Positions 18,264 to 24,244 of a stretch of DNA of 50,629 nucleotides are shown piece by piece (position 1 is the first letter of the stretch; each line of letters begins with the position of its first letter). Below the pieces are notes generated by a model that saw nothing but the letters and a program-made list of their open reading frames with translations, ran no database searches and was not told the DNA's origin. Source of the stretch: Desulfobulbaceae bacterium (GTDB lineage: Bacteria; Desulfobacterota; Desulfobulbia; Desulfobulbales; Desulfobulbaceae); assembly GCA_024763055.1 (NCBI GenBank), contig JANTGH010000008.1, positions 1 through 50,629 on the forward strand. The letters are read 5' to 3'. The translations under genes and the position numbers were made by a program.

Positions 18264-19793
18264 TCACACGCTGAAAACCTTTACCCTCTGTTCCACTCCC
18301 CGAAGCAAAAGATTACCCACATCTTCCGTTGGGATATCGCCGCAAACGGCCTCACGAACCGGTGCCGTCACATAGATTCGGCATTGTGAAGATTCTGCGG
18401 CAAGACGTTGCGCTATATTGACCGGAGTGCCGATCACGGTATAATCAAGACGTCTGTTTGAGCCGACATTTCCAATATACATCCGACCACTGGTCACGGC
18501 TATTCCGAGATCAACGGTTTGAAAATTCTCTACATGCTCTGCCCAACGGCTCCGTAATGCCTCAAAACGCTCCCGCAGAAGGAGAGCTGTCCGCACAGCC
18601 GCCCGGCTGGCATTTTCAAGTTGAACAGGAGCCCCAAACACGGCAAGAACAGCATCCCCCATGAACTTATCCACTGTGCCACTATGCTGGAAAATGGTAT
18701 CAGTAAAAACCTGGAAAAATTCATTGAGAAACATACGCAGATCTGAAAGCTCAAGGTGCTGAACAAGACTTGTAAAATTGCGAATATCGGCAAAGAGTAC
18801 CGTAGCCTTTTTAATCTCTCCAAGGCCCATGATATTTGCATCACCGGCCAGCAGAATTTCGGCAACTTCGGGTGCCACATACTGCTCAAACAGGGTTCGC
18901 ATTCGGGTAGTCTTTTTTGCCATTTCCAGCGAGCGGACATTTTCAAGGGCCAGGGCCGCCTGTCCGCAAATAATGCCAAGCATCTCCTTGTCCGACTCTG
19001 AAAAAAAAACATCCTCGGCAGTCCTGCTGATATTGAGAACCCCAAGAATATCTCCCCGGACAATAAGAGGAAAAGAAATGGCCGAGGTAATTTCCGTTCG
19101 CTTCAGCAGGGGAGCAAAGATAGACTCTTCCTGAGTATCACGATTTAAAATAACCGGTTTCCCCTGTTGAAAGACCCAACCGGCTATCTGATCACCGGGC
19201 CGGATACGAATAGATCGGGCAAGTTCCCGGTCCATACCTCTGGCAGCGGCTATACGCAGGCAAGCCTCTTCAGCATCAAAAAGCATCACGGAAACATGCC
19301 CTGCACCGGTCTGCCGGACTACCTCGTCAAGCAGACCGGCAAGCACCTCATCTTCAGTGGTAGATGAGAGCAACTGTTCGCCGAGGCTGTAGAGAGGCAG
19401 CAAGGTGTGTAAACGCTCATTTTCCCGGCGGAGCAAAGCTGCATCCATGGCCCTGGATACCTGATACTTCAACTGGTCGACTTCAAACGGCAGTTCAACC
19501 AGACCGCTTATGCCTGCTTCCATGGCCCGTCGCAAAAGCCCATTATCCACTGTACCGGCAAGAAGCAGCCCGGAAATAACAGGACACTGCCTGCGCAGAT
19601 CATGAAAAAGCGTACAACCGTCATGTCCGTTTACCTCTTCGGCGATGAGTACCAGAGTAACGGCATGCTTTCTGCAGAGTACTTCTCCATCAGCAACAGT
19701 CGTGCACTGATAAATCTCATATTCTTCAAACAACCGACAAATCTTGCCGGAAGATGATGTATTTTCCGCAAACAGCAGGATCGATTTATGCAT
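18264..19793 (-). CDS. Class III adenylate/guanylate cyclase with pseudo-receiver and GAF domains
   Basis: About 509 residues in three parts. Residues 3-115 have a response-regulator receiver fold, but the phosphoacceptor strand reads LVLIAEEVNGHDG, with Ala in place of Asp, and the conserved Lys-Pro reads Leu-Pro, so it should not be phosphorylated normally. Residues about 140-285 form a GAF domain. Residues 330-509 form a class III cyclase domain with metal-binding Asp336 (VLFADIRNFTSL) and Asp380 (DKFMGDAVLAVFG), and NIAQRLA further on. Catalytic residues look intact; cAMP is the likely product, cGMP not excluded. The ATG at 19793 is chosen because the receiver starts there. Confidence 0.85.
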   Translation of the reverse strand: MHKSILLFAENTSSSGKICRLFEEYEIYQCTTVADGEVLCRKHAVTLVLIAEEVNGHDGCTLFHDLRRQCPVISGLLLAGTVDNGLLRRAMEAGISGLVELPFEVDQLKYQVSRAMDAALLRRENERLHTLLPLYSLGEQLLSSTTEDEVLAGLLDEVVRQTGAGHVSVMLFDAEEACLRIAAARGMDRELARSIRIRPGDQIAGWVFQQGKPVILNRDTQEESIFAPLLKRTEITSAISFPLIVRGDILGVLNISRTAEDVFFSESDKEMLGIICGQAALALENVRSLEMAKKTTRMRTLFEQYVAPEVAEILLAGDANIMGLGEIKKATVLFADIRNFTSLVQHLELSDLRMFLNEFFQVFTDTIFQHSGTVDKFMGDAVLAVFGAPVQLENASRAAVRTALLLRERFEALRSRWAEHVENFQTVDLGIAVTSGRMYIGNVGSNRRLDYTVIGTPVNIAQRLAAESSQCRIYVTAPVREAVCGDIPTEDVGNLLLRGVEQRVKVFSV

Positions 19794-19937
19794 AATTTTC
19801 TTTAAGCCGACATGGCCGTGTTCGTTGTTCCCGAGACTTTTTAAATGAACAAAAAACACGATTGTACGATGCAGTTACCTTACCATCATGGCTATCGCAA
19901 GGCAAGGAATAGACAGCAAAAAAGCAACACCATTCCC

Positions 19938-19978: not shown

Positions 19979-21316
19979 ATGAAAAAATATTATCAGTATA
20001 ATGCACCCCTTGCCGAACGGATGCGGCCAAAAACTCTGGATCTTTTCGTCGGCCAGAGACATCTCACGGGAAAGGGCCGCTTGCTCAGCAGTCTGCTTGC
20101 TAAGGGAAAAATCCCATCACTGCTGCTCTGGGGACCACCGGGATCAGGTAAAACAACCCTGGCGACGATTCTGGCAAACACTCTGTCTGTCGATTTTATC
20201 TTTTTCTCTGCTGTTCTCTCCGGAGTCAAGGATATAAGGCGTATTGTTGCCGAAACTGAAAATAAAGACGACAACGTAAAGAAACAAACCATTCTCTTTG
20301 TCGATGAGATCCACCGTTTCAACAAAGGGCAGCAGGATGCCTTCCTGCCCCACGTTGAAAGCGGCCTGTTGACCCTGATCGGCGCGACGACCGAAAACCC
20401 TTCCTTTCACGTTATCGCACCCCTGCTCTCCCGCGCCCAGGTACTGATCCTTCAGCCACTAACCGGTGAGGATATCAAAATCATTGTCAAGAGGGCACTT
20501 ATCGATACAGAGCATGGCCTGGGTAAGCTTGGTCTCAGCGCTGAAGCTGAAGCACTGGAAGCTCTGGCCACGCTTGCCGATGGTGACTGCCGAAGAGCGC
20601 TGAACTGCCTGGAAACAGCAGCTGCCCTCATTTCTGCATCCGCTGATCAACAGGTAATCTCCCTGTCGCTTATTCGTGAGGCCGCTCAACAACAAAACCT
20701 GCGCTACGACAGCCAGGGCGAAGAACATTACAACCTTATTTCCGCGCTGCATAAGAGTATGCGCGACAGTGACCCGGATGGGGCCGCTTATTGGCTACGG
20801 CGGATGTTGAAAAGTGGAGAAAATCCCCTCTATATTGCCCGTCGCCTGATCCGCTTTGCCAGTGAAGATGTCGGCAATGCCGATCCACAGGGTCTGCAGG
20901 TGGCCCTTAACTGCCGGAACGCTTTTCACATGCTTGGATCGCCGGAAGGAGAACTGGCCCTCCTGCAGGCGGTCACTTATCTGGCTACCGCCCCCAAAAG
21001 CAATGCCCTCTATGTCGCTGAGAAAAAAATAGATAGAGATATCAAGGCAACAGGATCTTTGCCGGTACCCATGCATCTGCGTAACGCGCCTACCGGCCTG
21101 ATGAAAAAAATCGGCTACGGCAAGGGGTACCAATATGCTCATGATCAAAAAAATGGCCTTGTCGACCAGGAACACCTGCCGGAAAAACTTTCCGGAACAA
21201 CCTATTATGATCCCACTAATCGGGGCTTTGAAGCCGTTATCCGTGATCGCCTGATCAAATGGCGCAAACTATTACAACAAAGAGCAAAAAGCCATGCAAC
21301 ACCAACAAAAAAATAA
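19979..21316 (+). CDS. rarA: Replication-associated recombination protein A (RarA/MgsA)
   Basis: A 445-residue AAA+ ATPase of the clamp-loader-like RarA/WRNIP1 family. Walker A is WGPPGSGKTT (51-60) and Walker B ILFVDEIHRFNKGQQD (105-120), followed by GATTENPSF, a RarA hallmark, and SRAQV as sensor region. The C-terminal part, containing DVGNADPQ and YLATAPKSN, is the tetramerisation domain. It acts at stalled replication forks. A strong promoter lies directly upstream and the mRNA may be nearly leaderless. Its 3' end overlaps the next gene by 23 nt, so the two are probably co-transcribed. Confidence 0.93.
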   Translation: MKKYYQYNAPLAERMRPKTLDLFVGQRHLTGKGRLLSSLLAKGKIPSLLLWGPPGSGKTTLATILANTLSVDFIFFSAVLSGVKDIRRIVAETENKDDNVKKQTILFVDEIHRFNKGQQDAFLPHVESGLLTLIGATTENPSFHVIAPLLSRAQVLILQPLTGEDIKIIVKRALIDTEHGLGKLGLSAEAEALEALATLADGDCRRALNCLETAAALISASADQQVISLSLIREAAQQQNLRYDSQGEEHYNLISALHKSMRDSDPDGAAYWLRRMLKSGENPLYIARRLIRFASEDVGNADPQGLQVALNCRNAFHMLGSPEGELALLQAVTYLATAPKSNALYVAEKKIDRDIKATGSLPVPMHLRNAPTGLMKKIGYGKGYQYAHDQKNGLVDQEHLPEKLSGTTYYDPTNRGFEAVIRDRLIKWRKLLQQRAKSHATPTKK

Positions 21317-22910
21317 CCTGATTTTTTTTATTATTTTCTTGTTCCTTATTCCTGTCCTGACAGCACCGACCTGCAGCCAGGCGGCAAACAAACTGCTCGT
21401 TATGTACAGTAATGATGTCCGCGGAGAGCTTGAAGCCTGCGGCTGAAGCAGCAGTCAACTGGGCGGGCTGTCCAGAAAAGCATACCAGCTTCAACAATAT
21501 TCTGAAAAAAAACATCGTCCCACCCTTATCTTAGACAGCGGGGCGTGCTTTTTTAAACATCCGACTATTGCAAAGAATCAGCAGGCGGCGGCGACACGTA
21601 CCGCACAGGGAATTGCCGAGGCAATGGGCGTCATGCACACCCGGGCTGTGGGTATTTCCCCCTATGATCTTGCCGGCGGACCCGATCTTCTCCGCCGGCT
21701 GTCTCAAAAAAACAACCTGACCCTTCTTTCCATGAACCTTTACCCCGAACATGGGGCAGCTCCCCTGTTCCGTCCTTATCTACTGACCCGGATCGGTGGC
21801 ATGAACGTTGCCATTCTCGGCTTGACAGGAAGTTTTATTAATAAACAAATGAACAAGGGATTCCATATACTGCCCTGGCAGGAAATCCTGCCGGATATAC
21901 TTGGAACAGTCGAAAAAAAGGCTGATATGGTTATTCTGCTCTCCAGTGCTGCGAGGAGGACCAACGAGGAAATTGCCCGAAAATTTAAAAACATAAATAT
22001 CATATTTCAATCCGGACAGGGCAATGGCAATCAGGCCCCCGTTAACATCAATAATACCCTCATTTGCCGGACGGCAAGCCGGGGAAAATATTTAGGCGTT
22101 TTACATATCAACTGGAATCGTTCAAAAACCTGGGGTGAAAACATTCCTGACCAACTGAAAAAAGAGCAAAATCGTCTTGACCGGATAAACTGGCAGATCG
22201 GGCGAATGCAGAAACGACATCCAGCAAGTAAACTTGAGAGTAACAGCCAATTTCAACGGCTCATCAAGGAAAAAAACAAAGTAGAACAAGGTCTCAACCA
22301 GCTAAGACAACAGCAGACCAACAGCAAGAAGCCCTGTCGTTATACAAACAGTTTTATCGCCATGAAAACATCACTTCCCGAAGATAAAACCATCAAAGCC
22401 ATTGTTGATAAGACCAGGCGTGAAGTTAATCAGATCAATAGAAAAATGCAAAGGGAGCGAAAAAAAAGAAGAGAAACGCAGCGGCAAACAACGACCGGGC
22501 AGGTATTTTCCGTGCCACTGCAGGAAATGGCCGGCAGTCAGACCTGCCAGGAATGCCATCAGGCTCAGGTCGCTTTTTACCTGCAGACCGACCATGCCCG
22601 GGCCTGGCAAACCCTGGTTGCAAGAGACCAACAGTATAATCCGGAATGCCTCCCCTGTCATGTGACCCTGCCTCTTTATAATGGCAAGCGTATTCATGAT
22701 GCAAGATTATTGACCTCTATCCCGCCGCAACTCCATAACGTCGGCTGCGAGGCCTGCCACGGACCGGCGCGCAACCATTTGCACGATCCGGACATTATAC
22801 AACCAGACAAGCCTGTGGAAATCACCTGCCGCGGGTGTCATACAAAAGAGCGTGATAAAAATTTTATTTTCTCGGAAAAAATCCTCAAGATACGATGCCC
22901 GGCAGGTTGA
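21294..22910 (+). CDS. UshA-like / tetraheme cytochrome c fusion with in-frame UGA (putative selenoprotein)
   Basis: Read through the TGA at 21444-21446, the gene gives 538 residues. Residues 1-30 are a Sec-type signal peptide. SNDVRGELEACG follows, then residue 51 is the TGA, then SSSQLGGLSRK. Relatives in this UshA-like branch have Cys in a Cys-Gly-Cys motif at this point, so the codon probably encodes selenocysteine. A metallophosphatase-like fold continues to about residue 265, with the usual metal His replaced by Arg. A coiled coil spans about 285-395, and four CxxCH heme sites lie at 418, 452, 485 and 512. Expected location is the periplasm. The start overlaps rarA by 23 nt. A nonsense mutation is the alternative, but everything downstream is intact. 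Confidence 0.8.
21446..21491 (+). promoter_or_regulatory. Candidate bacterial SECIS hairpin after the in-frame UGA
   Basis: Just after the TGA, CTGG (21459-21462) and CCAG (21472-21475) form an upper stem. Its 9-nt loop begins with G, and the loop starts 16 nt after the UGA, inside the usual window for bacterial SECIS elements. AAGC (21446-21449) can pair with GCTT (21488-21491) as a lower stem. The stems are short and other foldings of the G-rich stretch exist (for instance CAGC at 21449 with GCTG at 21467), so this is a candidate only. Confidence 0.4.
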
Positions 22911-23320: not shown

Positions 23321-24244
23321 TTAACAACCGAAAGCCTTCTGCATCGCCGGAACAGTCTGTTTTTTACGGCTCATCATGCCGGGAATCCACATGGAGGTGC
23401 CATCCAACTTGGTGTCAAAAGCACCTTCAACGATGGATGGGTCATCAGAAACAACGACCAGATCAGTGCCCTCTTTTACAACATCGGTAAGCATCAGGAG
23501 GATGGTGTGATGTCCGCCCTCAGCCTTCTGCTCTTTCATGGCATTCAGCAGATCATCACGGATAGCGGCAACCTGATCAAGTGTTGCCAGCTCAAGCTGA
23601 CCACAGCCGACCTTATTGCCATTCATATCAAAATCTTTATAATCACGGTTGAGCAGATCCCTTGCAGGCACACCGTCAACAGAGCTTTTGGCTTTGAGCA
23701 TGTCCATAAACAGCTCATCAGTATCACTCACGCCGGCAATTTCTTTCAATTCCGCCACGGCTTTTTTGTCTTCATCGGTGCAGGTGGGCGACTTGAAGTT
23801 TACAGTATCACTTAAGATGGCAGCCAGCATCAATCCTGCAACCTTGGCATCAACGGCAACACCTTCAATATCATAAAGCTGTTTGAGGATGGTGCCGGTA
23901 CAGCCAACGGGTTTGAGACAGCAAAAAATAGGATTATTGGTTGTCACATCACCCATTTTATGATGATCAACTATGGCAACCACATTATTGGCATCCAGAT
24001 TGTCAGGGGCCTGAAGCAGATCATTATGGTCAACCAGAGCAATTGTTTTACCGGTGGCATCGGTCATGATTTCCGGGGCGGCAAAACCGAAACGTTCCAG
24101 GACCGTAGCGGTCTCAGGATTCATTTCTCCCTGCCTCGATGGAATTGCATCTTCCCCCTGGGCCTTCAGCAATTCGGCATAGGCAATAGCGGCGGTTACA
24201 GAATCAGTATCCGGATTTTTGTGGCCAGTTACATAAACAGACAT
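23321..24244 (-). CDS. ppaC: Manganese-dependent inorganic pyrophosphatase (family II)
   Basis: 307 residues, the standard family II length, DHH superfamily. The metal-site motifs are GHKNPDTDS (7-15), DHND (72-75), the DHH motif VDHHK (92-96) and SDTVNFKSPT (145-154). The C-terminal domain has the substrate-binding SRKKQ motif near residue 294. It hydrolyses pyrophosphate in the cytoplasm with Mn2+ or Co2+. No CBS/DRTGG regulatory insert is present. The start has an excellent AAGGAGGAG site. A candidate promoter lies at 24343-24371, and the terminator follows the stop, so it is a single-gene unit. Confidence 0.96.
   Translation of the reverse strand: MSVYVTGHKNPDTDSVTAAIAYAELLKAQGEDAIPSRQGEMNPETATVLERFGFAAPEIMTDATGKTIALVDHNDLLQAPDNLDANNVVAIVDHHKMGDVTTNNPIFCCLKPVGCTGTILKQLYDIEGVAVDAKVAGLMLAAILSDTVNFKSPTCTDEDKKAVAELKEIAGVSDTDELFMDMLKAKSSVDGVPARDLLNRDYKDFDMNGNKVGCGQLELATLDQVAAIRDDLLNAMKEQKAEGGHHTILLMLTDVVKEGTDLVVVSDDPSIVEGAFDTKLDGTSMWIPGMMSRKKQTVPAMQKAFGC

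Follow-up and report, generated by a model that had tools for sequence, protein, structure and literature searches.

The window, a 50,629-nucleotide stretch of a Desulfobulbaceae genome, carries a gene that probably encodes a selenoprotein working in redox chemistry and not as a hydrolase; we put the probability of this reading at roughly 80%. The predicted protein joins a 5'-nucleotidase-like domain without its metal site to a tetraheme cytochrome part, and an in-frame TGA occupies the second half of a Cys-Gly-Sec motif. An exported Sec protein with four heme sites is the very probable product, and it is a further example of a family that curators have already named and catalogued.

Gene structure and family identity

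Once the internal TGA is counted as a residue, translation gives a single frame from the ATG at 21294 to the TGA at 22908-22910 (Table 1). The motif is Cys49-Gly50-TGA51 in an Ala-Cys-Gly-Sec context, and 487 codons are open between codon 51 and the terminator. The first-pass annotation had described a TGA interrupting an otherwise clean frame, with a signal peptide before it and 487 open codons with four CxxCH motifs after it, and the translation bears out the frame, its length and the motifs. Residues 1-31 are signal peptide-like as judged by eye, and a helix is predicted at residues 3-22. We read the second TGA as the genuine terminator, since in the family alignment (A2: the window protein plus 28 relatives, with Sec written as Cys) the 25 heme-bearing rows finish inside the last columns.

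Table 1. Coordinates of the gene, its parts, its neighbours and related genes elsewhere (window positions unless a genome and contig are given).
Feature	Position	Strand	Remarks
Receiver-like + GAF + adenylate/guanylate cyclase protein	18264-19859	-	531 residues; two genes upstream
RarA/MgsA-like ATPase gene	19979..21316	+	upstream; 3' end overlaps ATG 21294
UshA-like (seleno)protein gene	21294..22910	+	538 residues, stop included; TGA codon 51 = putative Sec
5'-nucleotidase-like domain	21387..22115	+	about residues 32-274; metal site absent
In-frame TGA, codon 51	21444..21446	+	second half of Cys-Gly-Sec
SECIS-like hairpin	21459..21475	+	6 bp stem, 5-base loop GGGCU, 12 bases past TGA
Tetraheme c554-like part	22545..22841	+	CxxCH at 22545-22559, 22647-22661, 22746-22760, 22827-22841 (residues 418-422, 452-456, 485-489, 512-516)
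Manganese-dependent inorganic pyrophosphatase gene	23321..24244	-	convergent
selD of the same genome (L018)	G000:C7:41519-42451		in-frame TGA
Shorter UshA-like gene near selA (L087)	G192:C11:13941-14987		
Shorter UshA-like gene near selA (L051)	G140:C12:5869-7077		
Shorter UshA-like gene near selA (L088)	G081:C20:26232-27293		

The read-through protein matches the NCBIfam equivalog NF041198 (NF041198.1, UshA_like_PCGU) with 560.3 bits against a cut-off of 275. The match spans model positions 2-518 of 519 and residues 12-526, Sec site and heme part included. Membership of the family is defined by a score above the cut-off and a CxU motif at the N-terminal site, and the window protein has both. 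All 29 rows of A2 match the model at E <= 0.001. The model consensus is Pro-Cys-Gly-Sec, whereas the window protein has Ala in place of Pro. Of 247 genomes sampled across the phylum, the model finds a match at E <= 0.001 in 207 and over the cut-off in 52. Weak matches were also found in 9 of 14 control genomes (none over the cut-off), and thus the weak matches include ordinary nucleotidases.

The novelty suggested by the first-pass annotation is not borne out, as NF041198 already covers the nucleotidase-like part together with the heme part. In the text retrieved from a 2026 review, the entries are 'UshA-like protein, NF041198, CxU' and 'UshA-like selenoprotein family 2, NF049981, CxxU' (PMC13188914); by word search, that text has no words beginning with 'heme'. 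The retrieved part of a 2022 paper lists 'UshA-like protein, COG0737, CxU' (PMC9312934), and that of a 2008 paper gives 'COG0737, UshA-like, CxU' with 76 selenoproteins, 20 samples and 92 Cys homologues (PMC2398784). The COG0737 UshA-like group of 2008 is likely the same family as NF041198. No paper testing the function of the NF041198 family was found in the literature searched.

Two other catalogued families are comparable. The model for UshA-like (seleno)protein family 2 covers the same N-terminal fold region of the window protein with 45.5 bits, below its cut-off of 140, and its listed motif is CxxU rather than the CxU found here. The ExtKL multiheme cytochrome (seleno)protein NF040886, also a cytochrome selenoprotein among the entries retrieved from PMC13188914, matches 4 of the 29 A2 members (best E 0.0001); at E <= 0.001 it does not match the window protein.

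The codon in relatives

A profile search provided 30 loci (L022-L051, with the window gene as L026). A motif search recovered 29 of these and missed L051, which has Cys-Pro-Thr-Sec. TGA is present at the codon in 28 of the 29 motif-bearing loci, or in 27 of 28 when the window gene is excluded, each from a separate genome. Because this pattern is joined by a 519-position curated model that covers residues 12-526 across the TGA, we regard it as confirmed, at the level of sequence, that the observation is beyond chance. The exception is L033 (109-111, genome G111), a full-length tetraheme member with CGA and Ser-Gly-Arg. G111 keeps SelA and SelB, so this loss of Sec is not explained by loss of the machinery.

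Twenty additional stretches were examined, 12 of which were chosen since the profile search showed no stop. The motif is Cys-Gly-Sec in two (L089 and L090, the latter the gene of L048), Cys-Gly-Cys in four (L074, L075, L076 and L080; genomes G014, G185, G208 and G209), Cys-Pro-x-Sec in five (L086, L087, L088, L092 and L091, where a stop is printed and one TGA listed) and Ser-Gly-Sec in one (L093); the other eight have another arrangement or none (L077, L078, L079, L081-L085). The Ser-Gly-Sec case indicates that the Cys is not strictly needed. G014 is of the same taxonomic family as the window, and its Cys-Gly-Cys protein has 36% identity over residues 14-280. A search with a single protein query gave two distant loci; a Poribacteria MAG (L052) encodes Cys-Gly-Cys together with the heme part. 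Relatives thus carry either of the alternatives raised by the first-pass annotation, TGA in most motif-bearing loci and Cys in these five (L074, L075, L076, L080 and L052).

Selenocysteine machinery

Genome G000, from which the window comes, is an assembly of 350 contigs with 97.19% completeness and 4.89% contamination. It encodes all four components that the first-pass annotation had proposed to look for, each above its cut-off. The tRNA-Sec scores 72.3 bits (gathering 47) and is also found by ARAGORN with anticodon TCA; profile matches are 373.6 bits for SelB, 614.5 for SelA and 363.7 for SelD. In the 14 control genomes, the tRNA-Sec model has weak matches in 14 and is over the cut-off in 5, selB matches in 14 (2 over), selA in 4 (1 over) and selD in 14 (2 over). 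As the tRNA-Sec and selB models match weakly in every control, only matches over the cut-off are counted. SelA and SelB are over their cut-offs in 18 of 18 genomes tested, G111 among them.

The selD gene of this genome has an in-frame TGA itself and is probably also a selenoprotein gene. Three genomes from a single family each have a shorter UshA-like gene, with Cys-Pro-x-Sec, that is located 1.8-2.0 kb upstream of selA and is read in the same direction (Table 1); a link of these genes with the Sec machinery is possible.

A hairpin downstream of the TGA

The hairpin that follows the TGA is a likely SECIS element. A column-by-column table of base pairs was unusable because the stem register shifts between subgroups, and synonymous recoding was used for this reason. 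Of 500 synonymous recodings of the window sequence that follow the gene's own codon use, 23 form a hairpin as good. The z-score under recoding is negative in 28 of 28 TGA rows, window gene included (mean -1.80), and these rows are related and do not amount to 28 independent tests. The effect is near nil in several GC-rich rows; in L038, L043, L044, L046, L047 and L050 z is -0.13 to -0.49. The Ser-Gly-Arg member L033 has z -0.29, no better than recodings. The loop is GGGCU in the window gene versus GGUCU in most relatives.

The hairpin is included in the fold of a 60-base piece (z -1.18, with 32 of 200 shuffles as good); the minimum-energy fold of a 45-base piece is different and lacks it. Rfam gave no match at gathering scores, only two microRNA models with E 2.1 and 4.5, and the fold of the gene end gave no signal (z 0.61).

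Loss of the hydrolase metal site

The predicted structure (mean pLDDT 81.1, with Sec entered as Cys and heme absent) has residues 52-56 below 50 and ten-residue blocks of 45 to 81 from 401 on. Its N-terminal part is predicted to share the fold of UshA (4wwl, Z 32.4, rmsd 2.2, 277 aligned) and SoxB (2wdf, Z 30.7, rmsd 2.6, 276 aligned). The nucleotidase domain fills the list of fold matches, and the cytochrome part was hardly probed in this way. Profile scores for these hydrolases are far below cut-offs (53.4 bits against 550 for SoxB, TIGR04486; 18.8 against 600 for UshA), and no Pfam metallophosphoesterase domain is present in the window protein at E <= 0.001.

Seven positions, which we take to be the dinuclear metal ligands and whose motifs come from the alignments, were compared. 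The window protein retains one (D41). Across the 29 A2 rows, 0 to 4 of the seven are retained, with none in two rows and four in four rows. For the Asn of GNHE two alignment registers are possible, and the window protein keeps it in neither. The first-pass annotation had noted that the normal metal-binding His is Arg; this is the His of N-D-x-H, at Arg 43, and the loss of the site is more complete than was described. Since the ligands are lost while Cys49 and position 51 are retained in 28 of 29 rows, the sequences favour a redox over a phosphatase role.

The heme part

Pfam detects only the cytochrome parts of the protein: Cytochrome_C554 (PF13435) with 43.6 bits against a gathering score of 20.8, and Cytochrome_C7 with 28.3 bits. 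The region resembles cytochrome c554 (PDB 1bvb, phmmer E 2.9e-06), a protein of 211 residues, whereas here it forms the C-terminal part of a fusion with the UshA-like domain. The four CxxCH motifs, His 434 and His 495 are invariant in 25 of the 25 A2 rows that hold the region, as would be expected if the two His were axial ligands in a c554-like core.

In 25 of the 29 rows the UshA-like and heme parts form one fusion protein. The other four (L041, L045, L048 and L049) lack CxxCH and keep Cys-Gly-Sec. The best NF041198 matches of all five other sampled genomes of the same taxonomic family (these four and L074) are without a heme domain in the fetched DNA; in the case of L074 no frame with at least two CxxCH was found in a 2-kb stretch. 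Same-order relatives (L022-L024) have hemes. Given these heme-less and heme-bearing relatives, gain or loss of the heme part took place within the lineage, and the Cys-Gly-Sec module, on the same sequences, is not always beside hemes.

We considered a split cytochrome gene for L048, L049, L072, L073 and L074. A search for the cytochrome part, or for any frame carrying at least two CxxCH, found none within stretches of 2 to 18 kb, while it did locate those of L054 and L055.

Gene neighbourhood

Homologues of the RarA-like and pyrophosphatase neighbours each occur in 4 of 20 fetched relatives, all of the same order or family. In L073, the stretch that contains the L045 gene, RarA lies upstream as in the window. 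The cyclase has a homologue in 6 of the 20 relatives, and its distance from the gene varies. Neighbours in other relatives include aldehyde ferredoxin oxidoreductase, cytochrome/b561-like, LysM, ankyrin and DUF1684 proteins. Clustering used a length-greedy gene caller that missed the family gene in 2 of 21 loci (19 of 21 clustered). An operon-based explanation was rejected, as no neighbour is widely common among the 20 relatives. We read the locus as kept within the order, with no functional link.

Interpretation

Sec serves mostly in redox sites. The selenoprotein claim of the first-pass annotation is upheld by the complete Sec machinery, the exchange of Cys and Sec among homologues, the downstream hairpin and NF041198 membership. 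UGA codon 51 would be read as Sec by the genome's own SelA, SelB, SelD and tRNA-Sec, aided by the hairpin. It is scarcely credible that the codon is truly Cys through a sequencing error, or that the gene is dead and yields a 50-residue stub. The evidence is DNA alone and TGA is one base from a Cys codon, but the relatives with TGA come from separate genomes, the frame is otherwise open over 538 codons and the Sec machinery is full. Several observations do count against a Sec-based redox reading, namely Ser-Gly-Arg in L033 despite SelA and SelB, Ser-Gly-Sec in L093, the lack of a SECIS match in Rfam, a hairpin loop that differs from that of most relatives, the rows with a weak hairpin, the heme-less matches in the same family, and the control genomes that also match the tRNA-Sec and selB models.

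The protein would be exported. Its Cys-Gly-Sec pair is probably a redox centre close to the former substrate cleft, with a thiol, a disulfide or a sulfur/selenium compound of the periplasm as its substrate. That the protein is still a UshA/SoxB-type hydrolase whose active site has been rebuilt is very improbable: the predicted fold matches both enzymes and a few rows keep four ligand positions, but the window protein keeps one, two rows keep none, and both the hydrolase profiles and the Pfam domain search speak against it. Somewhat less remote, though still unlikely, is a selenoprotein in which Cys-Gly-Sec has a structural role or serves as a binding site for a metal or metalloid, with the hemes as an independent electron carrier. 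The heme-less rows that keep Cys-Gly-Sec indicate that the modules can exist apart, and the predicted structure, with low pLDDT at 52-56, does not put Sec close to the hemes. Against this stands the fusion of both parts in most rows. The retrieved part of the 2008 survey of marine families, in which the other major families have conserved Cys-based redox motifs, also argues for a redox site, although it names UshA-like, with SelD and FdhA, as exceptions (PMC2398784).

A more specific form of the redox reading is that a metal-less metallophosphoesterase fold has turned into a selenol redox enzyme, with Cys-Gly-Sec in the old cleft exchanging electrons directly with the c554-like tetraheme part as a periplasmic selenol-to-heme oxidoreductase. 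We hold this only tentatively, at less than even odds. A thiol/selenol-to-heme relay is plausible; we word direct transfer as inferred because the best same-family matches are heme-less in the fetched DNA and the model cannot place Sec.

In summary, the result bears out a curated annotation and extends it by the loss of the hydrolase site across the rows examined. NF041198 is a family named in the databases and over the cut-off in about a fifth of the sampled genomes of the phylum, and its functional role is putative. If the relay is real, a selenol enzyme would be wired directly into a multiheme cytochrome.
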